Positions 211-62,522 of a stretch of DNA of 64,000 nucleotides are shown piece after piece. The translations under genes and the position numbers were made by a program. The notes beneath the pieces were generated by a model. It was given only the letters and a program-made list of their open reading frames with translations, was not told the origin of the DNA and made no database searches. The stretch covers positions 3,720,001 through 3,784,000 of the forward strand of contig NC_092663.1 of the NCBI RefSeq assembly GCF_032118995.1, given 5' to 3'. The first letter of the stretch is position 1; each line of letters starts with the position of its first letter. The DNA is from Asterias amurensis (taxonomy: Eukaryota > Echinodermata > Asteroidea > Forcipulatida > Asteriidae).

Positions 211-3200
211 CTGTAATTTGATAACGTCAAAGGTTTTTTTTAAAAAGATGATCAGCAATATAATCATTACATCCTAATGATTGTGACAATGATAACAAAT
301 GTGAAAGAGAATTCGGCCATTACCTGCAGTAGTCGAGGTTGATGTCTGGGTTGTAGTTGTTACCACTGCAAATAACAAAATATAGATTGATATCAAGTTG
401 TGCAAAAAGATAATTTTTTGCAATTTGCTTATATTTTCTTTTGCTTTTGAAGATGAGAGTTCACATGTCATCCTGTCACTGATTTTGAAGAGGGAATTGC
501 TCATGCAAAGAACATTAAACACAAAGATAAGTGTCAGAGTTCATACTCAAGTAAATTTATTAAAACAAAAAGATAAACACCACATGCATTTTATATGGCA
601 GGGGTTGGAAGACAATGATATTTAGTGTACCTTTAGTAGTTGTGACAACCGGTGTAGTAGTTGAGATTTCTGTTTATAATCAAGAAGAATTCACCATTAA
701 TAAAAAAACAATTTATAGTGTTGTCAATGTAATTTATTGTGTGTACATATTTTCGAAAAGCGACAAGGAAAATATATGTCTAATATATGTATACATATTT
801 TTTTTAATTCACTTTTAAATTGTTTATTTTTTAATAGTATTGAATTTGAATGTTTGAAGCACACTAGGAAAACACTACATTTACTTCTTATTTTTTTTGA
901 TGAAATAGATAAAAATGAGATTGAATTGAATTGGCTCACCCTCTTCGCAGCCAAGAACATCAAAGCGCAAACTACCAAATCCGGCATCTTCTTGATCTAC
1001 AGACTCAAGTTGCAAGCTAAGAGCCAGCAAACCAGATAAAGGAGAAGGTAGTGCGACGGTTTCGACTCTCTGGTTTGTCAGATCTGCAATTAGTTTTTCA
1101 TCTTCCAGCTCTACAAACAGTCCATCAACTTCGTACTTAGCCGACACAACAAATTGCAATTCCTTGACAACATCACCACTTCCTTGCAGCTTAAATCCGT
1201 GCACTTCCACCTTGGACTTGAACTCAACAGTCACCGTAGGTTTGTTCTCTGCATCAACATATGGCAGTAGTTCGAATATCCAGGGATTGTCAGCATTAAT
1301 ACCGGTTGATTGATTTTGCTGTGGTGATATAAAACGTCTTTCTTCTAGATCCAGCAGGCCATTTAATGGTTCCATACATTCTCCTGAACAATTCACATTA
1401 AACATAATGTTGAAAAGATAGTTATAAATTGAAACAAAAGCAGCGGTGCGAATAAGTAAAAAAAGATCGGAATCGACAACAAAAGAAATAAACCTTTAGC
1501 TGAGAATTCATAGATGATTTGTAGTATTTACCTGCTGTAGTAGAGGTTGACGTTTGGGTCGTAGTAGTAATAACTGCAAAACAAATTAAACATGGATTCT
1601 TATATCAATAGTTTAGTTGTATATTGGTACTAAATGCTGGCTGCATATTTTGTTTTTATTGTGCGAGTATTCTTTAAATTTGTGAGTATGAGTTTCATTC
1701 CCCTCACTTGCATAATAGGTTTTTTTCACAAAGATGGACAGAAAAGCTTTTGCTGTTATCTGTTTGGAAGTGGAGAATAAATGCGTAAGTGTTGTTGCTG
1801 TTGGTGATGATGTTGTTGTTGTATTTTTTATTTTTTACATTCATGCAATACAAATATTGAGATATTCAGCAATAATTAAAGGGTTAATACCTTTAGTCGT
1901 TGTGACAACCGGTGTAGTAGTGGGTATTTCTGTTTAGGATGACAGAAAAATCATCGTCAATCACAATCATCAGTTAATCTAAACTTACAATAAACAAGTT
2001 TAGGAATTACACTAAGGATTTCGACCTACCTTCTTTGCATCCTAGCACATCGAGTCGCAAACTGCCTTTTCCAGCTTTTAAGTCATCAATTGATTGAACT
2101 TGTAATCGAACTGCAACTACTTGTTCTAATGGACTGTCCAGATTGACGGACTCTAGTCCATCTCCGGACAAGGTTGCTGTGATTTTCTGATCTTGTGGCA
2201 CCTCAACAAAGTCTCCATTATCTTCAAATTTGGCCAGGACGATGAATTTCAATTCCTTGACTAGCTCACCACTGCCTTGTAGCTTAAATCCGCGCACTTC
2301 AACTTTAGAAGTGAAATAAACAGTCAACTGAGGGGTGGTAACTGCTGACAGCTCAAAGGTCCACGGATATTCAGCGTTGATATTAGTTGATTGATTTGAA
2401 ATCTGCTGCGGTGTGAATGAACGCTCCGCTTCAAGATCTTGCTCGCCACTCATGGGTTCCATACAGTAACCTGGAGTGGGTTTATATGTAAAATAAAATC
2501 ATTTTAAATTACAAGTCCGAACCCGCAGCGCTTGATAAAAAGCAATGATACAATTTATATCTGCAGTACACATGCAGAAGAAAATTCATGATAACAACGG
2601 ACATTACCTGCTGTGGTGGAGGTTGGCATTTCAGTTGTAGTAGTAACCACTGGGGAAAAATCAAAGTACAATGTTTGAAATCAACTTCAAAGCAACATGA
2701 ACAGATATGATCAAAGCACATGCCATATAGGCTTACGGCAAACAGATAAGTTTGTATTAGTCTTGTATACAATTTTTACTCTTAATTTGATTTTACCGGT
2801 TGTGGGTGTTGTCGGTCTACTTGATAGTCGAGTTGTTGTGATGACAGGATTGAAGCCTGAAACAAGTGGCGCTGCAAACCAAAAACAAAAAACAAGAAAG
2901 TTGAAGAAATTGCACTTCATTGGTTTTGCCATCACTTGTTATTGAACCCTTAGAACAAAAACTCCTGGAAGTTTTTGCTCTGATAATAGATAGGTGACAA
3001 TGTTTTCAAGTTGATGAAATAAAATAATTTCAGTCAGACGGCATCAAGTTGTTTAATGATTGATTTACCTTCTGTTGTCGTTGTCGCAAGAGTAGTAGTT
3101 GACAGTTCTGTTTTTAAGAAATGAGAAAGATAACGACCATTTATTTCAACGAATCTCCTCTTTGACCTATACTCTCACACTGGAACTCCTCATATCCAAG

Positions 3201-6200
3201 TTTCTCATACTCTCACTGAATGTTACGTACCTTCTTCACAACCAAGGATAGCAGCACGTAAACTGAACTGAAGTTTGCTGTCAGTGGATTGACTTTCATC
3301 CATTCGAGAGAGGGAAACTACTTCTAAGCGCAATCCTATTAACCCTTTCAGCGGCTTTATCAATGTTACATCTGAAGCTTGCTCATTCAGCCTCATATTC
3401 TGCACCTGCAACACCAATAACAAGAATGAGTATAGAATGGCCATTCATACCTGATCATTTGAGTGCCGCTCAACTTTGACATATGGCAATAATTTGTTAA
3501 TACTGTCAATTGAATGTGTACTTATTGTGGGTAGGTTAATTTGAATAGGGAGAGTCTATGCTGAGAAAAGCTTCACTCACCAATGCTTTACCAGAGGCTC
3601 CCTGTACTATAACAAACGTTTCACCCAGTCTGCGTTTAGCTAACAAGATGAATTCAATGTTGTCATTGTTTGTACTGCCCTGAAGCCTTACTCCAGTAAC
3701 TGTGACTTCCGTCTTGAAATCTATGGTTACACTGGGGTTTTTGACAGTTTCTCGATCTTTCAAAGATGGCTGGTTATCAAGGGAGAACGTCCAAGGTTGC
3801 TGTGCGTTGACACTAGTTGACTGATCGTTGGCAATAGCCGGTTGTACTGATCGCTTGGCTTCCAGTCCCTGCGTTCCGTCAAGCTGCTCCATACAGTAAC
3901 CTATTACGAAACCGCAACCAGAAGATTAATTTCAAAATAATTCTTCGAGAATGAAAGGTTCAGCCATTAATTTTTTGAAACCTTGACGGAAAAAATGAAA
4001 TAAAGTACACACCTGCAGTTGTAGAAGTTGGAGACTGAGACGTGGTGGTTACAACTGCAATTGTAATAAACAATAAAAGTTTCTGTTATAATCAACTGAA
4101 TTGCAAAAGATAATGAGAAACAATTTTGCCACGCACGCTGGATAGTGTATATCAACTGCAAATGACAGAGAACATGTAACTCGTAGAGACAGCGAGCGAG
4201 CGCAAGGCTTTCAGAACTCATGGGAGAGTCAACAGTAAATGAAAACATCTTATCTCAATTTAAATCAAGATATTGATGCAGATTTCATTTCCAGACTAGT
4301 ATTGTATTTAGAGAACAACATAATCAATAAAACTAAAAGACAATTTGGGCGAGCGATGGACAAAAAGTGATTAACTACCGTAGTAAACTGACAGGTACGT
4401 TGCAATAAGGAGAAAAACCTTGACTAAAATTTCCTTGCCCTAGCCAGCATATTTTGCTTTACCTTTAGTCGTTGTGGTCACTGGAGTAGTAGATGAAATC
4501 TCTGTTTGGAATAAAAAATTTAAAAAAGTCATTATTAATTTTTCTTTAAAAAAAAAGAAGACTCTTGTAATAGTTTTTGCATTTGGCAGTAATGGATGTA
4601 ACTTTCACTCACCCTTCTCGCAGCCGAGGACCTCAATTCGCAAACTACCAGTTCCGCCATTCTCCTTTTTGATAACTTGTAGTTTAACTGCAACTACTCC
4701 AGGCAAGGGAGAGTCAAGAGTGATGGACTTTAAGTTGTCTTGGTACAATGTTGCTCCGAGTTTCTCACCTTCCAGCACATCAACAAACTGTCCATTATCT
4801 TCAGATTTGGCTGAGAGAATGAATTCCAGGGTAATGACATCCTCACCATTCCCTTGTAGTTTAAAACCACGCACTTCAACTTTAGATTGGTACTGAACAA
4901 TCACCCATGGATTGTCATATTCCTCACCAGCATCTGACGACAACTGGAAGGTCCACGGATTTTCAGAGTTGATAAGTGTTGATTGATTTGCTAGTGTTTG
5001 CTGTGGTGCGAATGAACGCTGTTCAAGATTATCCAGCTCACTCAAGGGATCCATGCAGTAACCTGTAATTTGATAACGTCAAAGGTTTTTTTTAAAAAGA
5101 TGATCAGCAATATAATCATTACATCCTAATGATTGTGACAATGATAACAAATGTGAAAGAGAATTCGGCCATTACCTGCAGTAGTCGAGGTTGATGTCTG
5201 GGTTGTAGTTGTTACCACTGCAAATAACAAAATATAGATTGATATCAAGTTGTGCAAAAAGAAAATTTTTTGCAATCTGCTTATATTTTCTTTTGCTTTT
5301 GAAGATGAGAGTTCACATGTCATCCTGTCACTGATTTTGAACAGGGAGTTGCTCATGCAAAGAACATTAAACACAAAGATAAATGTCAGAGTTCATACTC
5401 AAGTAAATTTATTAAAACAAAAAGATAGACACCACATGCATTTTATTTAGTGTACCTTTAGTAGTTGTGACAACCGGTGTAGTAGTGGAGATTTCTGTTT
5501 ATAATCAAGAAGAATTCACCATTAATAAAAAAACAATTTATAGTGTTGTCAATGTAATTTATTGTGTGTACATATTTTCAAAAAGCGACAAGGAAAATAT
5601 ATGTCTAATATATGTATACATATTTTTTTTAATTCACTTTTAAATTGTTTATTTTTTTATAGTATTGAATTTGAATGTTTGAAGCACACTAGGAAAACAC
5701 TACATTTACTTCTTATTTTAAGATGAAATAGATAAAAATGAGATTGAATTGAATTGGCTCACCCTCTTCGCAGCCAAGAACATCAAAGCGCAAACTACCA
5801 AATCCGGCATCTTCTTGATCTACAGACTCAAGTTGCAAGCTAAGAGCCAGCAAACCAGATAAAGGAGAAGGTAGTGCGACGGTTTCGACTCTCTGGTTTG
5901 TCAGATCTGCAATTAGTTTTTCATCTTCCAGCTCTACAAACAGTCCATCAACTTCGTACTTAGCCGACACAACAAATTGCAATTCCTTGACAACATCACC
6001 ACTTCCTTGCAGCTTAAATCCGTGCACTTCCACCTTGGACTTGAACTCAACAGTCACCGTAGGTTTGTTCTCTGCATCAACATATGGCAGTAGTTCGAAT
6101 ATCCAGGGATTGTCAGCATTAATACCGGTTGATTGATTTTGCTGTGGTGATATAAAACGTCTTTCTTCTAGATCCAGCAGGCCATTTAATGGTTCCATAC

Positions 6201-9200
6201 ATTCTCCTGAACAAATCACATTAAACATAATGTTGAAAAGATATTTATAAATTGAAACAAAAGCAGCGGTGCGAATAAGTAAAAAAAGATCGGAATCGAC
6301 AACAAAAGAAATAAACCTTTAGCTGAGAATTCATAGATGATTTGTAGTATTTACCTGCTGTAGTAGAGGTTGACGTTTGGGTCGTAGTAGTAATAACTGC
6401 AAAACAAATTAAACATGGATTCTTATATCAATAGTTTAGTTGTATATTGGTACTAAATGCTGGCTGCATATTTTGTTTTTATTGTGCGAGTATTCTTTAA
6501 ATTTGTGAGTATGAGTTTCATTCCCCTCACTTGCATAATAGGTTTTTTTCACAAAGATGGACAGAAAAGCTTTTGCTGTTATCTGTTTGGAAGTGGAGAA
6601 TAAATGCATAAGTGTTGTTGCTGTTGGTGATGATGTTGTTGTTGTATTTTTTATTTTTTACATTCATGCAATACAAATATTGAGATATTCAGCAATAATT
6701 AAAGGGTTAATACCTTTAGTCGTTGTGACAACCGGTGTAGTAGTGGGTATTTCTGTTTAGGATGACAGAAAAATCATCGTCAATCACAATCATCAGTTAA
6801 TCTAAACTTACAATATACAAGTTTAGGAATTACACTAAGGATTTCGACCTACCTTCTTTGCATCCTAGCACATCGAGTCGCAAACTGCCTTTTCCAGCTT
6901 TTAAGTCATCAATTGATTGAACTTGTAATCGAACTGCAACTACTCGTTCTAATGGAGTGTCCAGATTGACGGACTCTAGTCCATCTCCGGACAAGGTTGC
7001 TGTGATTTTCTGATCTTGTGGCACCTCAACAAAGTCTCCATTATCTTCAAATTTGGCCAGGACGATGAATTTCAATTCCTTGACTAGCTCACCACTGCCT
7101 TGTAGCTTAAATCCGCGCACTTCAACTTTAGAAGTGAAATAAACAGTCAACTGAGGGGTGGTAACTGCTGACAGCTCAAAGGTCCACGGATATTCAGCGT
7201 TGATATTAGTTGATTGATTTGAAATCTGCTGCGGTGTGAATGAACGCTCCGCTTCAAGATCTTGCTCGCCACTCATGGGTTCCATACAGTAACCTGGAGT
7301 GGGTTTATATGTAAAATAAAATCATTTTAAATTACAAGTCCGAACCCGCAGCGCTTGATAAAAAGCAAGGATACAATTTATATCTGCAGTACACATGCAG
7401 AAGAAAATTCATGATAACAACGGACATTACCTGCTGTGGTGGAGGTTGGCATTTCAGTTGTAGTAGTAACCACTGGGGAAAAACCAAAGTACAATGTTTG
7501 AAATCAACTTCAAAGCAACATGAACAGATATGATCAAAGCACATGCCATATAGGCTTACGGCAAACAGATAAGTTTGTATTAGTCTTGTATACAATTTTT
7601 ACTCTTAATTTGATTTTACCGGTTGTGGGTGTTGTCGGTCTACTTGATAGTCGAGTTGTTGTGATGACAGGATTGAAGCCTGAAACAAGTGGCGCTGCAA
7701 ACCAAAAACAAAAAACAAGAAAGTTGAAGAAATTGCACTTCATTGGTTTTGCCATCACTTGTTATTGAACCCTTAGAACAAAAACTCCTGGAAGTTTTTG
7801 CTCTGATAATAGATAGGTGACAATATTTTCAAGTTGATGAAATAAAATAATTTCAGTCAGACAGCATTAAGTTGTTTAATGATTGATTTACCTTCTGTTG
7901 TCGTTGTCGCAAGAGTAGTAGTTGACAGTTCTGTTTTTAAGAAATGAGAAAGATAAAGACCATTTATTTCAACGAATCTCCTCTTTGACCTATACTCTCA
8001 CACTGGAACTCCTCATATCCAAGTTTCTCACACTCTCACTGAATGTTACGTACCTTCTTCACAACCAAGGATAGCAGCACGTAAACTGAACTGAAGTTTG
8101 CTGTCAGTGGATTGACTTTCATCCATTCGAGAGAGGGAAACTACTTCTAAGCGCAATCCTATTAACCCTTTCAGCGGCTTTATCAATGTTACATCTGAAG
8201 CTTGCTCATTCAGCCTCATATTCTGCACCTGCAACACCAATAACAAGAATGAGTATAGAATGGCCATTCATACCTGATCATTTGAGTGCCGCTCAACTTT
8301 GACATATGGCAATAATTTGTTAATACTGTCAATTGAATGTGTACTTATTGTGGGTAGGTTAATTTGAATAGGGAGAGTCTATGCTGAGAAAAGCTTCACT
8401 CACCAATGCTTTACCAGAGGCTCCCTGTACTATAACAAACGTTTCACCCAGTCTGCGTTTAGCTAACAAGATGAATTCAATGTTGTCGTTGTTTGTACTG
8501 CCCTGAAGCCTTACTCCAGTAACTGTGACTTCTGTCTTGAAATCTATGGTTACACTGGGGTTTTTGACAGTTTCTCGATCTTTCAAAGATGGCTGGTTAT
8601 CAAGGGAGAACGTCCAAGGTTGCTGTGCGTTGACACTAGTTGACTGATCGTTGGCAATAGCCGGTTGTACTGATCGCTTGGCTTCCAGTCCCTGCGTTCC
8701 GTCAAGCTGCTCCATACAGTAACCTATTACGAAACCGCAACCAGAAGATTAATTTCAAAATAATTCTTCGAGAATGAAAGGTTCAGCCATTAATTTTTTG
8801 AAACCTTGACGAAAAAAATGAAATAAAGTACACACCTGCAGTTGTAGAAGTTGGAGACTGAGACGTGGTGGTTACAACTGCAATTGTAATAAACAATAAA
8901 AGTTTCTGTTATAATCAACTGAATTGCAAAAGATAATGAGAAACAATTTTGCCACGCACGCTGGATAGTGTATATCAACTGCAAATGACAGAGAACATGT
9001 AACTCGTAGAGACAGCGAGCGAGCGCAAGGCTTTCAGAACTCATGGGAGAGTCAACAGTAAATGAAAACATCTTATCTCAATTTAAATCAAGATATTGAT
9101 GCAGATTTCATTTCCAGACTAGTGTTGTATTTAGAGAACAACATAATCAATAAAACTAAAAGACAATTTGGGCGAGCGATGGACAAAAAGTGATTAACTA

Positions 9201-12200
9201 CCGTAGTAAACTGACAGTTATTGCAATAAGGAGAAAAACCTTGACTAAGATTTCTTTGCCCTAGCCAGCATATTTTGCTTTACCTTTAGTCGTTGTGGTC
9301 ACTGGAGTAGTAGATGAAATCTCTGTTTGGAATAAAAAATTAAAAAAAGTCATTATTAATTTTTCTTTAAAAAAAAAGAAGACTCTTGTAATAGTTTTTG
9401 CATTTGGCAGTAATGGATGTAACTTTCACTCACCCTTCTCGCAGCCGAGGACCTCAATTCGCAAACTACCAGTTCCGCCATTCTCCTTTTTGATAACTTG
9501 TAATTTAACTGCAACTACTTCAGGCAAGGGAGAGTCAAGAGTGATGGACTTTAAGTTGTCTTGGTACAATGTTGCTCCGAGTTTCTCACCTTCCAGCACA
9601 TCAACAAACTGTCCATTATCTTCAGATTTGGCTGAGAGAATGAATTCCAGGGTAATGACATCCTCACCATTCCCTTGTAGTTTAAAACCACGCACTTCAA
9701 CTTTAGATTGGTACTGAACAATCACCCATGGATTGTCATATTCCTCACCAGCATCTGACGACAACTGGAAGGTCCACGGATTTTCAGAGTTGATAAGTGT
9801 TGATTGATTTGCTAGTGTTTGCTGTGGTGCGAATGAACGCTGTTCAAGATTATCCAGCTCACTCAAGGGATCCATGCAGTAACCTGTAATTTGATAACGT
9901 CAAAGGTTTTTTTTAAAAAGATGATCAGCAATATAATCATTACATCCTAATGATTGTGACAATGATAACAAATGTGAAAGAGAATTCGGCCATTACCTGC
10001 AGTAGTCGAGGTTGATGTCTGGGTTGTAGTTGTTACCACTGCAAATAACAAAATATAGATTGATATCAAGTTGTGCAAAAAGAAATTTTTTTGCAATCTG
10101 CTTATATTTTCTTTTGCTTTTGAAGATGAGAGTTCACATGTCATCCTGTCACTGATTTTGAAGAGGGAGTTGCTCATGCAAAGAACATTAAACACAAAGA
10201 TAAATGTCAGAGTTCATACTCAAGTAAATTTATTAAAACAAAAAGATAGACACCACATGCATTTTATTTAGTGTACCTTTAGTAGTTGTGACAACCGGTG
10301 TAGTGGTGGAGATTTCTGTTTATAATCAAGAAGAATTCACCATTAATAAAAAAACAATTTATAGTGTTGTCAATGTAATTTATTGTGTGTACATATTTTC
10401 AAAAAGCGACAAGGAAAATATATGTCTAATATATGTATACATATTTTTTTTAATTCACTTTTAAATTGTTTATTTTTTTATAGTATTGAATTTGAATGTT
10501 TGAAGCACACTAGGAAAACACTACATTTACTTCTTATTTTAAGATGAAATAGATAAAAATGAGATTGAATTGAATTGGCTCACCCTCTTCGCAGCCAAGA
10601 ACATCAAAGCGCAAACTACCAAATCCGGCATCTTCTTGATCTACAGACTCAAGTTGCAAGCTAAGAGCCAGCAAACCAGATAAAGGAGAAGGTAGTGCGA
10701 CGGTTTCGACTCTCTGGTTTGTCAGATCTGCAATTAGTTTTTCATCTTCCAGCTCTACAAACAGTCCATCAACTTCGTACTTAGCCGACACAACAAATTG
10801 CAATTCCTTGACAACATCACCACTTCCTTGCAGCTTAAATCCGTGCACTTCCACCTTGGACTTGAACTCAACAGTCACCGTAGGTTTGTTCTCTGCATCA
10901 ACATATGGCAGTAGTTCGAATATCCAGGGATTGTCAGCATTAATACCGGTTGATTGATTTTGCTGTGGTGATATAAAACGTCTTTCTTCTAGATCCAGCA
11001 GGCCATTTAATGGTTCCATACATTCTCCTGAACAAATCACATTAAACATAATGTTGAAAAGATAGTTATAAATTGAAACAAAAGCAGCGGTGCGAATAAG
11101 TAAAAAAAGATCGGAATCGACAACAAAAGAAATAAACCTTCAGCTGAGAATTCAAAGATGATTTGTAGTATTTACCTGCTGTAGTAGAGGTTGACGTTTG
11201 GGTCGTAGTAGTAATAACTGCAAAACAAATTAAACATGGATTCTTATATCAATAGTTTAGTTGTATATTGGTTCTAAATGCTGGCTGCATATTTTGTTTT
11301 TATTGTGCGAGTATTCTTTAAATTTGTGAGTATGAGTTTCATTCCCCTCACTTGCATAATAGGTTTTTTTCACAAAGATGGACAGAAAAGCTTTTGCTGT
11401 TATCTGTTTGGAAGTGGAGAATAAATGCATAAGTGTTGTTGCTGTTGGTGATGATGTTGTTGTTGTATTTTTTATTTTTTACATTCATGCAATACAAATA
11501 TTGAGATATTCAGCAATAATTAAAGGGTTAATACCTTTAGTCGTTGTGACAACCGGTGTAGTAGTGGGTATTTCTGTTTAGGATGACAGAAAAATCATCG
11601 TCAATCACAATCATCAGTTAATCTAAACTTACAATATACAAGTTTAGGAATTACACTAAGGATTTCGACCTACCTTCTTTGCATCCTAGCACATCGAGTC
11701 GCAAACTGCCTTTTCCAGCTTTTAAGTCATCAATTGATTGAACTTGTAATCGAACTGCAACTACTCGTTCTAATGGAGTGTCCAGATTGACGGACTCTAG
11801 TCCATCTCCGGACAAGGTTGCTGTGATTTTCTGATCTTGTGGCACCTTAACAAAGTCTCCATTATCTTCAAATTTGGCCAGGACGATGAATTTCAATTCC
11901 TTGACTAGCTCACCACTGCCTTGTAGCTTAAATCCGCGCACTTCAACTTTAGAAGTGAAATAAACAGTCAACTGAGGGGTGGTAACTGCTGACAGCTCAA
12001 AGGTCCACGGATATTCAGCGTTGATATTAGTTGATTGATTTGAAATCTGCTGCGGTGTGAATGAACGCTCCGCTTCAAGATCTTGCTCGCCACTCATGGG
12101 TTCCATACAGTAACCTGGAGTGGGTTTATATGTAAAATAAAATCATTTTAAATTACAAGTCCGAACCCGCAGCGCTTGATAAAAAGCAAGGATACAATTT

Positions 12201-15200
12201 ATATCTGCAGTACACATGCAGAAGAAAATTCATGATAACAACGGACATTACCTGCTGTGGTGGAGGTTGGCATTTCAGTTGTAGTAGTAACCACTGGGGA
12301 AAAATCAAAGTACAATGTTTGAAATCAACTTCAAAGCAACATGAACAGATATGATCAAAGCACATGCCATATAGGCTTACGGCAAACAGATAAGTTTGTA
12401 TTAGTCTTGTATACAATTTTTACTCTTAATTTGATTTTACCGGTTGTGGGTGTTGTCGGTCTACTTGATAGTCGAGTTGTTGTGATGACAGGATTGAAGC
12501 CTGAAACAAGTGGCGCTGCAAACCAAAAACAAAAAACAAGAAAGTTGAAGAAATTGCACTTCATTGGTTTTGCCATCACTTGTTATTGAACCCTTAGAAC
12601 AAAAACTCCTGGAAGTTTTTGCTCTGATAATAGATAGGTGACAATATTTTCAAGTTGATGAAATAAAATAATTTCAGTCAGACAGCATTAAGTTGTTTAA
12701 TGATTGATTTACCTTCTGTTGTCGTTGTCGCAAGAGTAGTAGTTGACAGTTCTGTTTTTAAGAAATGAGAAAGATAAAGACCATTTATTTAAACGAATCT
12801 CCTCTTTGACCTATACTCTCACACTGGAACTCCTCATATCCAAGTTTCTCACACTCTCACTGAATGTTACGTACCTTCTTCACAACCAAGGATAGCAGCA
12901 CGTAAACTGAACTGAAGTTTGCTGTCAGTGGATTGACTTTCATCCATTCGAGAGAGGGAAACTACTTCTAAGCGCAATCCTATTAACCCTTTCAGCGGCT
13001 TTATCAATGTTACATCTGAAGCTTGCTCATTCAGCCTCATATTCTGCACCTGCAACACCAATAACAAGAATGAGTATAGAATGGCCATTCATACCTGATC
13101 ATTTGAGTGCCGCTCAACTTTGACATATGGCAATAATTTGTTAATACTGTCAATTGAATGTGTACTTATTGTGGGTAGGTTAATTTGAATAGGGAGAGTC
13201 TATGCTGAGAAAAGCTTCACTCACCAATGCTTTACCAGAGGCTCCCTGTACTATAACAAACGTTTCACCCAGTCTGCGTTTAGTTAACAAGATGAATTCA
13301 ATGTTGTCGTTGTTTGTACTGCCCTGAAGCCTTACTCCAGTAACTGTGACTTCCGTCTTGAAATCTATGGTTACACTGGGGTTTTTGACAGTTTCTCGAT
13401 CTTTCAAAGATGGCTGGTTATCAAGGGAGAACGTCCAAGGTTGCTGTGCGTTGACACTAGTTGACTGATCGTTGGCAATAGCCGGTTGTACTGATCGCTT
13501 GGCTTCCAGTCCCTGCGTTCCGTCAAGCTGCTCCATACAGTAACCTATTACGAAACCGCAACCAGAAGATTAATTTCAAAATAATTCTTCGAGAATGAAA
13601 GGTTCAGCCAGTAATTTTTTGAAACCTTGACGAAAAAAATGAAATAAAGTACACACCTGCAGTTGTAGAAGTTGGAGACTGAGACGTGGTGGTTACAACT
13701 GCAATTGTAATAAACAATAAAAGTTTCTGTTATAATCAACTGAATTGCAAAAGATAATGAGAAACAATTTTGCCACGCACGCTGGATAGTTTATATCAAC
13801 TGCAAATGACAGAGAACATGTAACTCGTAGAGACAGCGAGCGAGCGCAAGGCTTTCAGAACTCATGGGAGAGTCAACAGTAAATGAAAACATCTTATCTC
13901 AATTTAAATCAAGATATTGATGCAGATTTCATTTCCAGACTAGTGTTGTATTTAGAGAACAACATAATCAATAAAACTAAAAGACAATTTGGGCGAGCGA
14001 TGGACAAAAAGTGATTAACTACCGTAGTAAACTGACAGGTACGTTGCAATAAGGAGAAAAACCTTGACTAAGATTTCCTTGCCCTAGCCAGCATATTTTG
14101 CTTTACCTTTAGTCGTTGTGGTCACTGGAGTAGTAGATGAAATCTCTGTTTGGAATAAAAAATTTAAAAAGTCATTATTAATTTTTCTTTAAAAAAAAAG
14201 AAGACTCTTGTAATAGTTTTTGCATTTGGCAGTAATGGATGTAACTTTCACTCACCCTTCTCGCAGCCGAGGACCTCAATTCGCAAACTACCAGTTCCGC
14301 CATTCTCCTTTTTGATAACTTGTAGTTTAACTGCAACTACTCCAGGCAAGGGAGAGTCAAGAGTGATGGACTTTAAGTTGTCTTGGTACAATGTTGCTCC
14401 GAGTTTCTCACCTTCCAGCACATCAACAAACTGTCCATTATCTTCAGATTTGGCTGAGAGAATGAATTCCAGGGTAATGACATCCTCACCATTCCCTTGT
14501 AGTTTAAAACCACGCACTTCAACTTTAGATTGGTACTGAACAATCACCCATGGATTGTCATATTCCTCACCAGCATCTGACGACAACTGGAAGGTCCACG
14601 GATTTTCAGAGTTGATAAGTGTTGATTGATTTGCTAGTGTTTGCTGTGGTGCGAATGAACGCTGTTCAAGATTATCCAGCTCACTCAAGGGATCCATGCA
14701 GTAACCTGTAATTTGATAACGTCAAAGGTTTTTTTTAAAAAGATGATCAGCAATATAATCATTACATCCTAATGATTGTGACAATGATAACAAATGTGAA
14801 AGAGAATTCGGCCATTACCTGCAGTAGTCGAGGTTGATGTTTGGGTTGTAGTTGTTACCACTGCAAATAACAAAATATAGATTGATATCAAGTTGTGCAA
14901 AAAGATAATTTTTTGCAATTTGCTTATATTTTCTTTTGCTTTTGAAGATGAGAGCTCACATGTCATCCTGTCACTGATTTTAAAGAGGGAATTGCTCATG
15001 CAAAGAACATTAAACACAAAGATAAGTGTCAGAGTTCATACTCAAGTAAATTTATTAAAACAAAAAGATAAACACCACATGCATTTTATATGGCAGGGGT
15101 TGGAAGACAATGATATTTAGTGTACCTTTAGTAGTTGTGACAACCGGTGTAGTAGTGGAGATTTCTGTTTATAATCAAGAAGAATTCACCATTAATAAAA

Positions 15201-18200: not shown

Positions 18201-21200
18201 TTCTGTCTTGAAATCTATGGTTACACTGGGGTTTTTGACAGTTTCTCGATCTTTCAAAGATGGCTGGTTATCAAGGGAGAACGTCCAAGGTTGCTGTGCG
18301 TTGACACTAGTTGACTGATCGTTGGCAATAGCCGGTTGTACTGATCGCTTGGCTTCCAGTCCCTGCGTTCCGTCAAGCTGCTCCATACAGTAACCTATTA
18401 CGAAACCGCAACCAGAAGATTAATTTCAAATTAATTCTTCGAGAATGAAAGGTTCAGCCAGTAATTTTTTGAAACCTTGACGAAAAAAATGAAATAAAGT
18501 ACACACCTGCAGTTGTAGAAGTTGGAGACTGAGTTGTGGTGGTTACAACTGCAATTGTAATAAACAATAAAAGTTTCTGTTATAACCAACTGAATTGCAA
18601 AAGATAATGAGAAACAATTTTGCCACGCACGCTGGATAGTGTATATCAACTGCAAATGACAGAGAACATGTAACTCGTAGAGACAGCGAGCGAGCGCAAG
18701 GCTTTCAGAACTCATGGGAGAGTCAACAGTAAATGAAAACATCTTATCTCAATTTAAATCAAGATATTGATGCAGATTTCATTTCCAGACTAGTGTTGTA
18801 TTTAGAGAACAACATAATCAATAAAACTAAAAGACAATTTGGGCGAGCGATGGACAAAAAGTGATTAACTACCGTAGTAAACTGACAGGTACGTTGCAAT
18901 AAGGAGAAAAACCTTGACTAAGATTTCCTTGCCCTAGCCAGCATATTTTGCTTTACCTTTAGTCGTTGTGGTCACTGGAGTAGTAGATGAAATCTCTGTT
19001 TGGAATAAAAAATTAAAAAAAGTCATTATTAATTTTTCTTTAAAAAAAAAGAAGACTCTTGTAATAGTTTTTGCATTTGGCAGTAATGGATGTAACTTTC
19101 ACTCACCCTTCTCGCAGCCGAGGACCTCAATTCGCAAACTACCAGTTCCGCCATTCTCCTTTTTGATAACTTGTAGTTTAACTGCAACTACTCCAGGCAA
19201 GGGAGAGTCAAGAGTGATGGACTTTAAGTTGTCTTGGTACAATGTTGCTCTGAGTTTCTCACCTTCCAGCACATCAACAAACTGTCCATTATCTTCAGAT
19301 TTGGCTGAGAGAATGAATTCCAGGGTAATGACATCCTCACCATTCCCTTGTAGTTTAAAACCACGCACTTCAACTTTAGATTGGTACTGAACAATCACCC
19401 ATGGATTGTCATATTCCTCACCAGCATCTGACGACAACTGGAAGGTCCACGGATTTTCAGAGTTGATAAGTGTTGATTGATTTGCTAGTGTTTGCTGTGG
19501 TGCGAATGAACGCTGTTCAAGATTATCCAGCTCACTCAAGGGATCCATGCAGTAACCTGTAATTTGATAACGTCAAAGGTTTTTTTTTAAAAGATGATCA
19601 GCAATATAATCATTACATCCTAATGATTGTGACAATGATAACAAATGTGAAAGAGAATTCGGCCATTACCTGCAGTAGTCGAGGTTGATGTTTGGGTTGT
19701 AGTTGTTACCACTGCAAATAACAAAATATAGATTGATATCAAGTTGTGCAAAAAGATAATTTTTTGCAATTTGCTTATATTTTCTTTTGCTTTTGAAGAT
19801 GAGAGTTCACATGTCATCCTGTCACTGATTTTAAAGAGGGAATTGCTCATGCAAAGAACATTAAACACAAAGATAAGTGTCAGAGTTCATACTCAAGTAA
19901 ATTTATTAAAACAAAAAGATAAACACCACATGCATTTTATATGGCAGGGGTTGGAAGACAATGATATTTAGTGTACCTTTAGTAGTTGTGACAACCGGTG
20001 TAGTAGTGGAGATTTCTGTTTATAATCAAGAAGAATTCACCATTAATAAAAAAACAATTTATAGTGTTGTCAATGTAATTTATTGTGTGTACATATTTTC
20101 GAAAAGCGACAAGGAAAATATATGTCTAATATATGTATACATATTTTTTTTAATTCACTTTTAAATTGTTTATTTTTTAATAGTATTGAATTTGAATGTT
20201 TGAAGCACACTAGGAAAACACTACATTTACTTCTTATTTTTTTGATGAAATAGATAAAAATGAGATTGAATTGAATTGGCTCACCCTCTTCGCAGCCAAG
20301 AACATCAAAGCGCAAACTACCAAATCCGGCATCTTCTTGATCTACAGACTCAAGTTGCAAGCTAAGAGCCAGCAAACCAGATAAAGGAGAAGGTAGTGCG
20401 ACGGTTTCGACTCTCTGGTTTGTCAGATCTGCAATTAGTTTTTCATCTTCCAGCTCTACAAACAGTCCATCAACTTCGTACTTAGCCGACACAACAAATT
20501 GCAATTCCTTGACAACATCACCACTTCCTTGCAGCTTAAATCCGTGCACTTCCACCTTGGACTTGAACTCAACAGTCACCGTAGGTTTGTTCTCTGCATC
20601 AACATATGGCAGTAGTTCGAATATCCAGGGATTGTCAGCATTAATACCGGTTGATTGATTTTGCTGTGGTGATATAAAACGTCTTTCTTCTAGATCCAGC
20701 AGGCCATTTAATGGTTCCATACATTCTCCTGAACAAATCACATTAAACATAATGTTGAAAAGATAGTTATAAATTGAAACAAAAGCAGCGGTGCGAATAA
20801 GTAAAAAAAGATCGGAATCGACAACAAAAGAAATAAACCTTTAGCTGAGAATTCATAGATGATTTGTAGTATTTACCTGCTGTAGTAGAGGTTGACGTTT
20901 GGGTCGTAGTAGTAATAACTGCAAAACAAATTAAACATGGATTCTTATATCAATAGTTTAGTTGTATATTGGTACTAAATGCTGGCTGCATATTTTGTTT
21001 TTATTGTGTGAGTATTCTTTAAATTTGTGAGTATGAGTTTCATTCCCCTCACTTGCATAATAGGTTTTTTTTACAAAGATGGACAGAAAAGCTTTTGCTG
21101 TTATCTGTTTGGAAGTGGAGAATAAATGCATAAGTGTTGTTGCTGTTGGTGATGATGTTGTTGTTGTATTTTTTATTTTTTACATTCATGCAATACAAAT

Positions 21201-24200
21201 ATTGAGATATTCAGCAATAATTAAAGGGTTAATACCTTTAGTCGTTGTGACAACCGGTGTAGTAGTGGGTATTTCTGTTTAGGATGACAGAAAAATCATC
21301 GTCAATCACAATCATCAGTTAATCTAAACTTACAATATACAAGTTTAGGAATTACACTAAGGATTTCGACCTACCTTCTTTGCATCCTAGCACATCGAGT
21401 CGCAAACTGCCTTTTCCAGCTTTTAAGTCATCAATTGATTGAACTTGTAATCGAACTGCAACTACTCGTTCTAATGGAGTGTCCAGATTGACGGACTCTA
21501 GTCCATCTCCGGACAAGGTTGCTGTGATTTTCTGATCTTGTGGCACCTCAACAAAGTCTCCATTATCTTCAAATTTGGCCAGGACGATGAATTTCAATTC
21601 CTTGACTAGCTCACCACTGCCTTGTAGCTTAAATCCGCGCACTTCAACTTTAGAAGTGAAATAAACAGTCAACTGAGGGGTGGTAACTGCTGACAGCTCA
21701 AAGGTCCACGGATATTCAGCGTTGATATTAGTTGATTGATTTGAAATCTGCTGCGGTGTGAATGAACGCTCCGCTTCAAGATCTTGCTCGCCACTCATGG
21801 GTTCCATACAGTAACCTGGAGTGGGTTTATATGTAAAATAAAATCATTTTAAATTACAAGTCCGAACCCGCAGCGCTTGATAAAAAGCAAGGATACAATT
21901 TATATCTGCAGTACACATGCAGAAGAAAATTCATGATAACAACGGACATTACCTGCTGTGGTGGAGGTTGGCATTTCAGTTGTAGTAGTAACCACTGGGG
22001 AAAAATCAAAGTACAATGTTTGAAATCAACTTCAAAGCAACATGAACAGATATGATCAAAGCACATGCCATATAGGCTTACGGCAAACAGATAAGTTTCT
22101 ATTAGTCTTGTATACAATTTTTACTCTTAATTTGATTTTACCGGTTGTGGGTGTTGTCGGTCTACTTGATAGTCGAGTTGTTGTGATGACAGGATTGAAG
22201 CCTGAAACAAGTGGCGCTGCAAACCAAAAACAAAAAACAAGAAAGTTGAAGAAATTGCACTTCATTGGTTTTGCCATCACTTGTTATTGAACCCTTAGAA
22301 CAAAAACTCCTGGAAGTGTTTTTGCTCTGATAATAGATAGGTGACAATATTTTCAAGTTGATGAAATAAAATAATTTCAGTCAGACAGCATTAAGTTGTT
22401 TAATGATTGATTTACCTTCTGTTGTCGTTGTCGCAAGAGTAGTAGTTGACAGTTCTGTTTTTAAAAAATGAGAAAGATAAAGACCATTTATTTAAACGAA
22501 TCTCCTCTTTGACCTATACTCTCACACTGGAACTCCTCATATCCAAGTTTCTCACACTCTCACTGAATGTTACGTACCTTCTTCACAACCAAGGATAGCA
22601 GCACGTAAACTGAACTGAAGTTTGCTGTCAGTGGATTGACTTTCATCCATTCGAGAGAGGGAAACTACTTCTAAGCGCAATCCTATTAACCCTTTCAGCG
22701 GCTTTATCAATGTTACATCTGAAGCTTGCTCATTCAGCCTCATATTCTGCACCTGCAACACCAATAACAAGAATGAGTATAGAATGGCCATTCATACCTG
22801 ATCATTTGAGTGCCGCTCAACTTTGACATATGGCAATAATTTGTTAATACTGTCAATTGAATGTGTACTTATTGTGGGTAGGTTAATTTGAATAGGGAGA
22901 GTCTATGCTGAGAAAAGCTTCACTCACCAATGCTTTACCAGAGGCTCCCTGTACTATAACAAACGTTTCACCCAGTCTGCGTTTAGCTAACAAGATGAAT
23001 TCAATGTTGTCGTTGTTTGTACTGCCCTGAAGCCTTACTCCAGTAACTGTGACTTCTGTCTTGAAATCTACGGTTACACTGGGGTTTTTGACAGTTTCTC
23101 GATCTTTCAAAGATGGCTGGTTATCAAGGGAGAACGTCCAAGGTTGCTGTGCGTTGACACTAGTTGACTGATCGTTGGCAATAGCCGGTTGTACTGATCG
23201 CTTGGCTTCCAGTCCCTGCGTTCCGTCAAGCTGCTCCATACAGTAACCTATTACGAAACCGCAACCAGAAGATTAATTTCAAAATAATTCTTCGAGAATG
23301 AAAGGTTCAGCCAGTAATTTTTTGAAACCTTGACGAAAAAAATGAAATAAAGTACACACCTGCAGTTGTAGAAGTTGGAGACTGAGTTGTGGTGGTTACA
23401 ACTGCAATTGTAATAAACAATAAAAGTTTCTGTTATAACCAACTGAATTGCAAAAGATAATGAGAAACAATTTTGCCACGCACGCTGGATAGTGTATATC
23501 AACTGCAAATGACAGAGAACATGTAACTCGTAGAGACAGCGAGCGAGCGCAAGGCTTTCAGAACTCATGGGAGAGTCAACAGTAAATGAAAACATCTTAT
23601 CTCAATTTAAATCAAGACATTGATGCAGATTTCATTTCCAGACTAGTGTTGTATTTAGAGAACAACATAATCAATAAAACTAAAAGACAATTTGGGCGAG
23701 CGATGGACAAAAAGTGATTAACTACCGTAGTAAACTGACAGGTACGTTGCAATAAGGAGAAAAACCTTGACTAAGATTTCCTTGCCCTAGCCAGCATATT
23801 TTGCTTTACCTTTAGTCATTGTGGTCACTGGAGTAGTAGATGAAATCTCTGTTTGGAATAAAAAATTAAAAAAAGTCATTATTAATTTTTCTTTAAAAAA
23901 AAAGAAGACTCTTGTAATAGTTTTTGCATTTGGCAGTAATGGATGTAACTTTCACTCACCCTTCTCGCAGCCGAGGACCTCAATTCGCAAACTACCAGTT
24001 CCGCCATTCTCCTTTTTGATAACTTGTAGTTTAACTGCAACTACTCCAGGCAAGGGAGAGTCAAGAGTGATGGACTTTAAGTTGTCTTGGTACAATGTTG
24101 CTCCGAGTTTCTCACCTTCCAGCACATCAACAAACTGTCCATTATCTTCAGATTTGGCTGAGAGAATGAATTCCAGGGTAATGACATCCTCACCATTCCC

Positions 24201-27200
24201 TTGTAGTTTAAAACCACGCACTTCAACTTTAGATTGGTACTGAACAATCACCCATGGATTGTCATATTCCTCACCAGCATCTGACGACAACTGGAAGGTC
24301 CACGGATTTTCAGAGTTGATAAGTGTTGATTGATTTGCTAGTGTTTGCTGTGGTGCGAATGAACGCTGTTCAAGATTATCCAGCTCACTCAAGGGATCCA
24401 TGCAGTAACCTGTAATTTGATAACGTCAAAGGTTTTTTTTAAAAAGATGATCAGCAATATAATCATTACATCCTAATGATTGTGACAATGATAACAAATG
24501 TGAAAGAGAATTCGGCCATTACCTGCAGTAGTCGAGGTTGATGTTTGGGTTGTAGTTGTTACCACTGCAAATAACAAAATATAGATTGATATCAAGTTGT
24601 GCAAAAAGATAATTTTTTGCAATTTGCTTATATTTTCTTTTGCTTTTGAAGATGAGAGTTCACATGTCATCCTGTCACTGATTTTAAAGAGGGAATTGCT
24701 CATGCAAAGAACATTAAACACAAAGATAAGTGTCAGAGTTCATACTCAAGTAAATTTATTAAAACAAAAAGATAAACACCACATGCATTTTATATGGCAG
24801 GGGTTGGAAGACAATGATATTTAGTGTACCTTTAGTAGTTGTGACAACCGGTGTAGTAGTGGAGATTTCTGTTTATAATCAAGAAGAATTCACCATTAAT
24901 AAAAAAACAATTTATAGTGTTGTCAATGTAATTTATTGTGTGTACATATTTTCGAAAAGCGACAAGGAAAATATATGTCTAATATATGTATACATATTTT
25001 TTTTAATTCACTTTTAAATTGTTTATTTTTTAATAGTATTGAATTTGAATGTTTGAAGCACACTAGGAAAACACTACATTTACTTCTTATTTTTTTGATG
25101 AAATAGATAAAAATGAGATTGAATTGAATTGGCTCACCCTCTTCGCAGCCAAGAACATCAAAGCGCAAACTACCAAATCCGGCATCTTCTTGATCTACAG
25201 ACTCAAGTTGCAAGCTAAGAGCCAGCAAACCAGATAAAGGAGAAGGTAGTGCGACGGTTTCGACTCTCTGGTTTGTCAGATCTGCAATTAGTTTTTCATC
25301 TTCCAGCTCTACAAACAGTCCATCAACTTCGTACTTAGCCGACACAACAAATTGCAATTCCTTGACAACATCACCACTTCCTTGCAGCTTAAATCCGTGC
25401 ACTTCCACCTTGGACTTGAACTCAACAGTCACCGTAGGTTTGTTCTCTGCATCAACATATGGCAGTAGTTCGAATATCCAGGGATTGTCAGCATTAATAC
25501 CGGTTGATTGATTTTGCTGTGGTGATATAAAACGTCTTTCTTCTAGATCCAGCAGGCCATTTAATGGTTCCATACATTCTCCTGAACAAATCACATTAAA
25601 CATAATGTTGAAAAGATAGTTATAAATTGAAACAAAAGCAGCGGTGCGAATAAGTAAAAAAAGATCGGAATCGACAACAAAAGAAATAAACCTTTAGCTG
25701 AGAATTCATAGATGATTTGTAGTATTTACCTGCTGTAGTAGAGGTTGACGTTTGGGTCGTAGTAGTAATAACTGCAAAACAAATTAAACATGGATTCTTA
25801 TATCAATAGTTTAGTTGTATATTGGTACTAAATGCTGGCTGCATATTTTGTTTTTATTGTGTGAGTATTCTTTAAATTTGTGAGTATGAGTTTCATTCCC
25901 CTCACTTGCATAATAGGTTTTTTTCACAAAGATGGACAGAAAAGCTTTTGCTGTTATCTGTTTGGAAGTGGAGAATAAATGCATAAGTGTTGTTGCTGTT
26001 GGTGATGATGTTGTTGTTGTATTTTTTATTTTTTACATTCATGCAATACAAATATTGAGATATTCAGCAATAATTAAAGGGTTAATACCTTTAGTCGTTG
26101 TGACAACCGGTGTAGTAGTGGGTATTTCTGTTTAGGATGACAGAAAAATCATCGTCAATCACAATCATCAGTTAATCTAAACTTACAATATACAAGTTTA
26201 GGAATTACACTAAGGATTTCGACCTACCTTCTTTGCATCCTAGCACATCGAGTCGCAAACTGCCTTTTCCAGCTTTTAAGTCATCAATTGATTGAACTTG
26301 TAATCGAACTGCAACTACTCGTTCTAATGGAGTGTCCAGATTGACGGACTCTAGTCCATCTCCGGACAAGGTTGCTGTGATTTTCTGATCTTGTGGCACC
26401 TCAACAAAGTCTCCATTATCTTCAAATTTGGCCAGGACGATGAATTTCAATTCCTTGACTAGCTCACCACTGCCTTGTAGCTTAAATCCGCGCACTTCAA
26501 CTTTAGAAGTGAAATAAACAGTCAACTGAGGGGTGGTAACTGCTGACAGCTCAAAGGTCCACGGATATTCAGCGTTGATATTAGTTGATTGATTTGAAAT
26601 CTGCTGCGGTGTGAATGAACGCTCCGCTTCAAGATCTTGCTCGCCACTCATGGGTTCCATACAGTAACCTGGAGTGGGTTTATATGTAAAATAAAATCAT
26701 TTTAAATTACAAGTCCGAACCCGCAGCGCTTGATAAAAAGCAAGGATACAATTTATATCTGCAGTACACATGCAGAAGAAAATTCATGATAACAACGGAC
26801 ATTACCTGCTGTGGTGGAGGTTGGCATTTCAGTTGTAGTAGTAACCACTGGGGAAAAATCAAAGTACAATGTTTGAAATCAACTTCAAAGCAACATGAAC
26901 AGATATGATCAAAGCACATGCCATATAGGCTTACGGCAAACAGATAAGTTTCTATTAGTCTTGTATACAATTTTTACTCTTAATTTGATTTTACCGGTTG
27001 TGGGTGTTGTCGGTCTACTTGATAGTCGAGTTGTTGTGATGACAGGATTGAAGCCTGAAACAAGTGGCGCTGCAAACCAAAAACAAAAAACAAGAAAGTT
27101 GAAGAAATTGCACTTCATTGGTTTTGCCATCACTTGTTATTGAACCCTTAGAACAAAAACTCCTGGAAGTGTTTTTGCTCTGATAATAGATAGGTGACAA

Positions 27201-30200
27201 TATTTTCAAGTTGATGAAATAAAATAATTTCAGTCAGACAGCATTAAGTTGTTTAATGATTGATTTACCTTCTGTTGTCGTTGTCGCAAGAGTAGTAGTT
27301 GACAGTTCTGTTTTTAAGAAATGAGAAAGATAAAGACCATTTATTTAAACGAATCTCCTCTTTGACCTATACTCTCACACTGGAACTCCTCATATCCAAG
27401 TTTCTCACACTCTCACTGAATGTTACGTACCTTCTTCACAACCAAGGATAGCAGCACGTAAACTGAACTGAAGTTTGCTGTCAGTGGATTGACTTTCATC
27501 CATTCGAGAGAGGGAAACTACTTCTAAGCGCAATCCTATTAACCCTTTCAGCGGCTTTATCAATGTTACATCTGAAGCTTGCTCATTCAGCCTCATATTC
27601 TGCACCTGCAACACCAATAACAAGAATGAGTATAGAATGGCCATTCATACCTGATCATTTGAGTGCCGCTCAACTTTGACATATGGCAATAATTTGTTAA
27701 TACTGTCAATTGAATGTGTACTTATTGTGGGTAGGTTAATTTGAATAGGGAGAGTCTATGCTGAGAAAAGCTTCACTCACCAATGCTTTACCAGAGGCTC
27801 CCTGTACTATAACAAACGTTTCACCCAGTCTGCGTTTAGTTAACAAGATGAATTCAATGTTGTCGTTGTTTGTACTGCCCTGAAGCCTTACTCCAGTAAC
27901 TGTGACTTCTGTCTTGAAATCTATGGTTACACTGGGGTTTTTGACAGTTTCTCGATCTTTCAAAGATGGCTGGTTATCAAGGGAGAACGTCCAAGGTTGC
28001 TGTGCGTTGACACTAGTTGACTGATCGTTGGCAATAGCCGGTTGTACTGATCGCTTGGCTTCCAGTCCCTGCGTTCCGTCAAGCTGCTCCATACAGTAAC
28101 CTATTACGAAACCGCAACCAGAAGATTAATTTCAAAATAATTCTTCGAGAATGAAAGGTTCAGCCAGTAATTTTTTGAAACCTTGACGAAAAAAATGAAA
28201 TAAAGTACACACCTGCAGTTGTAGAAGTTGAAGACTGAGTTGTGGTGGTTACAACTGCAATTGTAATAAACAATAAAAGTTTCTGTTATAACCAACTGAA
28301 TTGCAAAAGATAATGAGAAACAATTTTGCCACGCACGCTGGATAGTGTATATCAACTGCAAATGACAGAGAACATGTAACTCGTAGAGACAGCGAGCGAG
28401 CGCAAGGCTTTCAGAACTCATGGGAGAGTCAACAGTAAATGAAAACATCTTATCTCAATTTAAATCAAGATATTGATGCAGATTTCATTTCCAGACTAGT
28501 GTTGTATTTAGAGAACAACATAATCAATAAAACTAAAAGACAATTTGGGCGAGCGATGGACAAAAAGTGATTAACTACCGTAGTAAACTGACAGGTACGT
28601 TGCAATAAGGAGAAAAACCTTGACTAAGATTTCCTTGCCCTAGCCAGCATATTTTGCTTTACCTTTAGTCGTTGTGGTCACTGGAGTAGTAGATGAAATC
28701 TCTGTTTGGAATAAAAAATTAAAAAAAGTCATTATTAATTTTTCTTTAAAAAAAAAGAAGACTCTTGTAATAGTTTTTGCATTTGGCAGTAATGGATGTA
28801 ACTTTCACTCACCCTTCTCACAGCCGAGGACCTCAATTCGCAAACTACCAGTTCCGCCATTCTCCTTTTTGATAACTTGTAGTTTAACTCCAACTACTCC
28901 AGGCAAGGGAGAGTCAAGAGTGATGGACTTTAAGTTGTCTTGGTACAATGTTGCTCCGAGTTTCTCACCTTCCAGCACATCAACAAACTGTCCATTATCT
29001 TCAGATTTGGCTGAGAGAATGAATTCCAGGGTAATGACATCCTCACCATTCCCTTGTAGTTTAAAACCACGCACTTCAACTTTAGATTGGTACTGAACAA
29101 TCACCCATGGATTGTCATATTCCTCACCAGCATCTGACGACAACTGGAAGGTCCACGGATTTTCAGAGTTGATAAGTGTTGATTGATTTGCTAGTGTTTG
29201 CTGTGGTGCGAATGAACGCTGTTCAAGATTATCCAGCTCACTCAAGGGATCCATGCAGTAACCTGTAATTTGATAACGTCAAAGGTTTTTTTTAAAAAGA
29301 TGATCAGCAATATAATCATTACATCCTAATGATTGTGACAATGATAACAAATGTGAAAGAGAATTCGGCCATTACCTGCAGTAGTCGAGGTTGATGTTTG
29401 GGTTGTAGTTGTTACCACTGCAAATAACAAAATATAGATTGATATCAAGTTGTGCAAAAAGATAATTTTTTGCAATCTGCTTATATTTTCTTTTGCTTTT
29501 GAAGATGAGAGTTCACATGTCATCCTGTCACTGATTTTGAAGAGGGAGTTGCTCATGCAAAGAACATTAAACACAAAGATAAATGTCAGAGTTCATACTC
29601 AAGTAAATTTATTAAAACAAAAAGATAGACACCACATGCATTTTATTTAGTGTACCTTTAGTAGTTGTGACAACCGGTGTAGTAGTGGAGATTTCTGTTT
29701 ATAATCAAGAAGAATTCACCATTAATAAAAAAACAATTTATAGTGTTGTCAATGTAATTTATTGTGTGTACATATTTTCGAAAAGCGACAAGGAAAATAT
29801 ATTTCTAATATATGTATACATATTTTTTTTAATTCACTTTTAAATTGTTTATTTTTTTATAGTATTGAATTTGAATGTTTGAAGCACACTAGGAAAACAC
29901 TACATTTACTTCTTATTTTAAGATGATAGATAAAAATGAGATTGAATTGAATTGGCTCACCCTCTTCGCAGCCAAGAACATCAAAGCGCAAACTACCAAA
30001 TCCGGCATCTTCTTGATCTACAGACTCAAGTTGCAAGCTAAGAGCCAGCAAACCAGATAAAGGAGAAGGTAGTGCGACGGTTTCGACTCTCTGGTTTGTC
30101 AGATCTGCAATTAGTTTTTCATCTTCCAGCTCTACAAACAGTCCATCAACTTCGTACTTAGCCGACACAACAAATTGCAATTCCTTGACAACATCACCAC

Positions 30201-62331: not shown

Positions 62332-62522
62332 CTAAAACAATAGAAAACAATATCATCTACTTCACATTCTTCTAGTAAGTACTTGGTTCTTCTTATATAG
62401 CGCAATATGCAGCCAATCAAACTAGGAACACCGGGGCGAACACGTTAATGCAATGGATATTGTTCAGCAAAAAGATATGATTGTTATTGTCTAGAGTTTT
62501 ATATGCAACATTGCATTGCTGT

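Follow-up and report, generated by a model that had tools for sequence, protein, structure and literature searches.

Mlig-ap2 of the flatworm Macrostomum lignano and the Sfp footprint proteins of the sea star Asterias rubens are the described systems closest to the locus analyzed here, a tandem array of discoidin-like domain exons in Asterias amurensis. The array lies in and around a stretch of 64,000 nucleotides (contig NC_092663.1, C16:3720001-3784000 in our numbering; hereafter the window), and negative window coordinates refer to the same contig left of the window. Mlig-ap2 has 14,794 amino acids, in which an N-terminal part with VWD, TIL, and LDL domains is followed by 21 repeats of 255 and 25 repeats of 221 amino acids; it also has thrombospondin domains, and its knock-down abolished adhesion (PMC6410801). 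Sfp10 of A. rubens (GenBank OP067646) belongs to the footprint catalogue and its transcripts are found in adhesive gland cells. Its sequence of 747 amino acids, extended from 416 by merging overlapping transcripts, has an incomplete open reading frame (ORF), comes from a poorly assembled region, and is of unknown chromosome; a galactose-binding/F5/8-C-type domain is named for Sfp10 or Sfp11, and the peptide that raised the Sfp10 antibody is printed in the same source (PMC9382459, here and below within its accessible text). Sfp12a, Sfp12b, and Sfp12c (442, 437, and 425 amino acids), which have no annotated domains and are threonine-rich variants of a repetitive sequence, and Sfp13 (1,551 amino acids, with VWD and VWC domains) have the same status, all five sequences lying in poorly assembled regions, neither completed nor placed on a chromosome (PMC9382459). 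Sfp1 and Sfp2 are both large, secreted proteins of the footprint and contain VWD, C8, and TIL domains; Sfp1 is cleaved to give four subunits, and an auto-catalytic GPDH site is present in Sfp2 (PMC9382459).

We found that the window holds part of a ten-unit array with the Sfp10 epitope in each unit. The array is likely to be the repetitive body of a secreted sea star adhesive protein of very large size, one unit of which corresponds to Sfp10, because its complete units are all intact, its exons are constrained, the epitope recurs in every copy and has a core confined to the array, VWD, C8, TIL, and VWC modules and a signal-peptide-like start lie upstream, and its threonine content and the likeness of neighboring units agree with such a protein. 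Relative to an earlier interpretation of the window made from its letters alone (the sequence-only reading), the extension of the array beyond the window, the VWD-C8-TIL modules, a larger second array, and the footprint-protein epitope within the unit are new. In the literature on sea star footprint and adhesive proteins, searched with a coverage that leaves out most subscription papers, the array is not described in titles or abstract openings.

A tandem array of four-domain units

Six complete units of 4,821-4,853 bases occupy window positions 29262-211 on the minus strand, and the region of the first domain recurs in seven direct copies at the same spacing (window 1-29352). Self-BLAST gave 98.9-99.6% identity between copies across stretches of at least one unit, and the tandem array itself is confirmed. 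The six in-frame units counted by the sequence-only reading are all present, a count that covers the window alone. The full array (array 1) extends from window -21735 to 31126 and comprises ten complete units (29262 to -19166) with a partial unit at each end; the 5' partial unit consists of linkers, domain B, and linkers, and the 3' one of domains A and D and some linkers. In total, our gene finder, described below, placed 11 exons of A, 11 of B, 10 of C, and 11 of D in array 1. All 14 exon lengths are identical in ten of ten complete units, in which no stop codon and, among the splice dinucleotides tested, no broken one was found. The splice test omitted the acceptor of exon A and the upstream acceptor of a 75-base linker exon; the gene finder, which accepts AG and GT only, used both of them in every one of the ten units. 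With the upstream linker acceptor, the coding sum of a unit is 2,229 bases (743 codons) in ten of ten units, as had been claimed for the 14 exons, and with an acceptor 15 bases further on it is 2,214 bases (738 codons). Judging from these splice sites, the paired acceptors could give each unit either 743 or 738 residues. A period of 738 codons as the sole reading was rejected, the gene finder having chosen the upstream acceptor. Units u4 (4,822 bases) and u5 (4,821 bases), at window 14705-5063, are about 30 bases shorter than the neighboring units, and this difference sits in the intron before the donor side of exon lB1, near positions 594-619 of the last copy.

When aligned base by base, the ten complete units differ pairwise by 0.06-0.81%, which is less than the heterozygosity of 0.96% reported for A. 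amurensis (PMC11090083). Variation is lower in exons than in introns: for the 2,229-base exon set, 25 of 2,229 exonic columns are variable versus 57 of 2,575 gap-free intronic columns (odds ratio 0.50, Fisher p 0.0036), and all 53 gap columns lie in introns, with 0 in exons. Fifteen changes among the units alter an amino acid and ten are silent, giving a per-site nonsilent/silent ratio of 0.48. Adjacent units are closer to each other than distant ones (mean difference 0.36% versus 0.58%; Mantel r 0.37, reached by 72 of 5,000 permutations), and the edge pieces are more diverged, with 95.1-98.7% identity to the reference unit. Likeness of neighbors together with diverged edges is what unequal exchange and conversion would be expected to produce. 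The lowest pairwise difference, 0.06% between u7 and u8, would also suit an error in unit number, with haplotypes merged or the array collapsed or expanded in assembly. We consider such an error unlikely, as the longest exact repeats (3,380 bases in array 1 and 4,521 bases in array 2, described below) are well under the fragments of about 15 kb used in the HiFi assembly of A. amurensis (PMC10625585), unit lengths and intron variants differ among units, and no N was present in the 244 kb checked.

The four domain types of a unit are 37.7-58.3% identical to one another. Against the Pfam family F5_F8_type_C (PF00754, cut-off 28.2 bits), domain A scored 22.2 bits, the first exon of D 18.1, B 16.9, and C 16.5. 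A profile built from A to D retrieved 15 Protein Data Bank sequences at E up to 1, every one of them factor VIII, with a best E of 0.013. The AlphaFold2 model of domain A is all-beta with a mean predicted local distance difference test score of 64.7, and a Foldseek search with this low-confidence model returned mixed matches, in which a viral capsid protein came first and the C2 domain of factor VIII second. The claim of four diverged discoidin-like domains per block is supported, with matches to the family below its cut-off. In a tree of 13 sample domains, one of them with its second exon shortened by hand, the single-exon domains A, B, and C grouped together (support 0.959) and the two-exon domain D stood apart; A and B as sisters received a support of 0.271, and the joining point of D one of 0.129. 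Of the hierarchy proposed by the sequence-only reading, the four-domain block and the array of blocks stand, whereas its level of domain pairs was rejected on the grouping of A, B, and C and the low support for A with B. Domain D contains a phase-0 intron (window 3231-3900) that no other domain of array 1 has and that is also present in eight of nine sampled domains outside array 1, and A, B, and C may have descended from a copy that lost it. Since the four domains are so diverged while whole blocks differ by less than 1%, the proposed order of events, an old domain duplication followed by a much younger amplification of the four-domain block, is supported by the sequence comparison.

Sfp10 as a probable period of the array

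The Sfp10 epitope is identical at 15 of 15 residues in all 11 second exons of domain D in array 1. When its 10-residue core was back-translated, 11 sites were found in the whole genome (491,506,623 bases, 23 contigs), all of them in array 1, and a control gave 0. Besides the epitope, there is a likeness in domain type, F5/8-C-type as named for Sfp10 or Sfp11 and F5/8-C-like in the array-1 unit, and in length, 747 amino acids compared with a period of 743 or 738 residues. Merging transcripts of a tandem array would give a consensus that closes at roughly the length of one period, so that Sfp10 can be read as such a period; on this comparison, Sfp10 very probably represents a single repeat of a longer protein, not the whole of it. 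Whereas Sfp10 was catalogued as a separate, incomplete protein, the unit here recurs ten times in one frame beside VWD modules, and the locus offers a reason for the incompleteness, namely that Sfp10 is one period of a near-identical array. Sfp10 as the repeat block of a longer secreted protein would change the view of how sea star glue is built.

Upstream of array 1, VWD-C8-TIL modules on the same strand occupy much of the rest of the window, and a signal-peptide-like first exon is located at 79980, again on the array-1 strand. In a hand-merged upstream prediction of 2,233 amino acids, Pfam identified three stretches of VWD (E-value 4e-67), three of C8 (3.9e-40), five of TIL (7.1e-25), and five of VWC (1.1e-6); this merged protein left out doubted exons, and a later gene-finder run gave 1,725 amino acids. 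The motif GLCGN occurs at three places in the predicted protein and CGLCG at one, and neither GPDH nor GDPH occurs in it, the model dropping some upstream exons. LDL-receptor-A-like and EMI-like stretches seen by eye are not claimed, since Pfam, with E up to 0.5, gave none. von Willebrand factor and gel-forming mucins, which have a C-terminal cystine knot, resemble the predicted protein in the run of VWD-C8-TIL, in a CGLCG within one VWD, and in threonine-rich linkers; they differ from it in that F5/8-C-like arrays are present here and CGLCG is found in only one of the three VWD domains. Sfp1 and Sfp2 are also similar in their VWD, C8, and TIL modules, but the accessible text of PMC9382459 mentions no arrays of this kind in either, and an assignment to Sfp1 or Sfp2 was rejected given the absence of GPDH and GDPH from the model.

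Downstream of array 1, a cysteine-rich spacer is followed by array 2, which contains 65 copies each of two further domains on the array-1 strand (window -30797 to -174803). In the gene model, the domain exons of array 2 are 359, 157, 344, and 160 bases long, constant in 65 of 65 copies, and its unit has 418 amino acids, or 428 with a two-exon linker, a variant found in 12 units. Neighboring units are again the most alike (r 0.51, 0 of 500 permutations, for the 51 of 64 units of standard length), and a shift in sequence near -79391 suggests that array 2 is made of two sub-arrays. The domains of array 2 have no Pfam match to F5_F8_type_C and are called discoidin-like only because they resemble the other domains. 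Beyond array 2 lies a third region, with a threonine-rich part and more discoidin-like domains, one of which scores 30.2 bits in F5_F8_type_C, above the cut-off, and another 11.8. The threonine content is 12.8% in array 1, 17.8% in array 2, and 32.6% in the threonine-rich region. Array-2 units resemble Sfp12a, Sfp12b, and Sfp12c in size, in being threonine-rich, and in having no F5/8 C match in Pfam, and the upstream region resembles Sfp13 in its VWD and VWC domains, likenesses limited to domain type, size, and shared status.

In searches of the whole genome at the DNA level, all 21 of 21 candidates for exon A of array 1 were on C16 inside the stretch of contig described here. The same was true of every scored match for the third region (8 of 8 and 9 of 9) and for array 2, where 40 of 65 candidates were scored. 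These results bear on a different function for the protein. VWD-C8-TIL and F5/8 C domains are also found in clotting and mucus proteins, and the product could be a clotting, mucus, or egg-coat protein, with the adhesive gland as no more than one of the places where it is used. We regard this as very improbable, because the epitope core of Sfp10 is confined to array 1 genome-wide, exon A has no DNA-level match off C16, and Sfp10 itself is known from the footprint and the adhesive gland cells (PMC9382459). The best reading of the product remains a secreted, lectin- and mucin-like cohesive polymer.

One gene or several

To describe the locus as a whole, a gene model was produced by a custom scorer of splice sites and codons, with generic splice frequencies taken from general knowledge and a codon table that was partly self-trained. 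The model joins the upstream region, both arrays, and the threonine-rich region in 730 exons and about 45,440 residues, with about 198 starts of discoidin-like domains, and is still open at C16:3480001; some upstream exons were dropped in later runs, false exons were probably added, and the final exon is an edge effect. The score was 24,929.4 on the gene strand, 2,949.5 on the wrong strand, and 5.2 for block-shuffled sequence. From this model, it is somewhat probable that the upstream region, array 1, and array 2 form one gene, and rather unlikely that the whole stretch does. In our estimate, there is slightly less than an even chance that the VWD region upstream, the two arrays, and the threonine-rich region are two to four neighboring genes of one adhesive cluster; in that case, array 1 would have a start and a stop of its own and would still be Sfp10. 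Nine forced breaks in the model cost only 11.7-58.5 score units each, including a charge of 12 units for a new gene, the gene finder chains exons readily even on the wrong strand, and a start-like ORF lies before the third region at -184376, all of which fit separate genes. On the other hand, the junctions are phase-compatible, the sole start-like ORF in the interval from the VWD region to array 1, at 30008, falls inside exon B, and the 9-kb spacer between arrays 1 and 2 yielded no signal-peptide-like start; the scan was a simple hydrophobicity filter, and so the absence of starts is weak evidence.

The closest architecture to the joined model is that of Mlig-ap2, in which a VWD/TIL N-terminal part is likewise followed by two successive arrays of large repeats. 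This order is present here on the chromosome and, as one chain, by the gene model only. Mlig-ap2 has other repeat lengths, and here there are three VWD domains with C8, VWC domains, and F5/8-C-like repeats; the likeness is one of plan. It is tentatively proposed, and we hold it to be doubtful, that Sfp10, Sfp12, and Sfp13 all belong to a single polypeptide exceeding 45,000 residues, which would carry about 200 discoidin-like domains and have its adhesive valency set by tandem copy number. If so, this polypeptide would be in the size class of the largest known animal proteins. Human titin has about 35,000 residues. At 110 Da per residue, a chain of 45,440 residues would weigh about 5 MDa; a review puts PKZILLA-1 at 4.7 MDa (PMC12194139). 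The footprint would then hold a giant polymer in which the number of glycan-binding and glycan-bearing sites follows tandem copy number, a plan also seen in Mlig-ap2 from an unrelated lineage, and the locus enables a direct test of footprint cohesion against repeat number across individuals or species.

For the protein proposed here, the upstream modules and array 1 would be expressed as one transcript. By analogy with von Willebrand factor and gel-forming mucins, the VWD modules might link chains through disulfides. The discoidin-like domains would be putative glycan binders and the threonine-rich linkers might carry O-glycans, so that many weak contacts between lectin and sugar, within and between chains, could produce a cohesive, hydrated footprint. 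Unequal exchange and conversion would add, remove, and homogenize units in whole-unit, in-frame steps.

Several observations weigh against an adhesive protein of this kind. None of the four array-1 domains reaches the Pfam cut-off, the structure model is of low confidence with a viral capsid protein as its top match, the glycan binding of the domains is putative, and the upstream EGF-like matches fall below their Pfam cut-offs. All splicing is predicted, forced breaks in the gene model cost little, and on the wrong strand the gene finder chains 262 exons (9,168 codons), at a far lower score. The comparison with Sfp10 covers 15 residues, and labeling of the footprint with anti-Sfp10 was described as 'blurry and difficult to interpret' (PMC9382459). 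Furthermore, a pattern covering 11 residues out of 14 in an astacin-like Sfp peptide of A. rubens gave 0 matches, perhaps owing to an exon boundary or a species difference, and this result lends no support to closeness to A. rubens.

Other features of the locus

Table 1 Positions of the predicted features, in window coordinates unless stated otherwise.
Feature	Position	Strand	Basis
Array-1 unit u1, A-D-C-B block with linkers, 14 exons	24410..29262	-	
Array-1 unit u2	19557..24409	-	
Array-1 unit u3	14706..19556	-	
Array-1 unit u4	9884..14705	-	
Array-1 unit u5	5063..9883	-	
Array-1 unit u6, reference unit	211..5062	-	
Start of unit u7, cut at the window edge, running on to -4643	1..210	-	
5' partial unit, domain B (29961-30404) flanked on each side by two linker exons; diverged further than the inner units	29376..31092	-	
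Domain A exon of u6, 450 bases, single exon	4613..5062	-	Pfam F5_F8_type_C, splice sites
Domain D first exon of u6, 320 bases	3581..3900	-	Pfam F5_F8_type_C, splice sites
Domain D second exon of u6, 175 bases, with the Sfp10 antibody epitope	3231..3405	-	epitope match
Linker exon with two acceptors, 75 bases, or 60 bases from 2856; same place in every unit	2797-2871	-	splice sites, gene finder
Domain C exon of u6, 441 bases	2030..2470	-	Pfam, splice sites
Domain B exon of u6, 444 bases	940..1383	-	Pfam, splice sites
Last cysteine-rich exon before array 1, joining the first linker (31092-31054) in phase 1	31572..31766	-	gene model
Cysteine-rich region: VWC- and TIL-type modules, threonine-rich linkers, many short exons	34809..49927	-	gene models, Pfam
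TIL-type exon after the third C8	52484..52730	-	gene model, Pfam
Third VWD with C8, CGLCG motif near 54066	53248..55473	-	gene model, Pfam
TIL-type exons between the second and third VWD	56437..58812	-	gene model, Pfam
Second VWD with C8	60217..62331	-	gene model, Pfam
Array 2, 65 two-domain units of 2.05-2.85 kb	C16:3545197-3689203 = window -174803 to -30797	same as array 1	
Predicted exon of 1,917 bases in the threonine-rich region, a coding minisatellite in which a 45-base unit with many threonine codons recurs about 42 times	-181567 to -183483		
Dispersed repeat copies	31808-32205, 33728-34095, 40425-40812, 51134-51501, 59162-59545, 62520-62852	both orientations	self-BLAST

At the gathering threshold, Rfam gave 0 matches within the window. 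Dispersed repeats of about 330-400 bases, 76-87% alike, are located in introns of the model and are probably copies of a mobile element. Elsewhere in the assembly, contig C23 contains a COX1 match with 11 internal TGA codons, as in the mitochondrion. Two full-length COX1 matches with TGA codons were also detected 16,420 bases apart on a nuclear contig (C5:658874-660214 and 675294-676634), a pair suggestive of mitochondrial DNA repeated in tandem in the nucleus, or else of an error in assembly.

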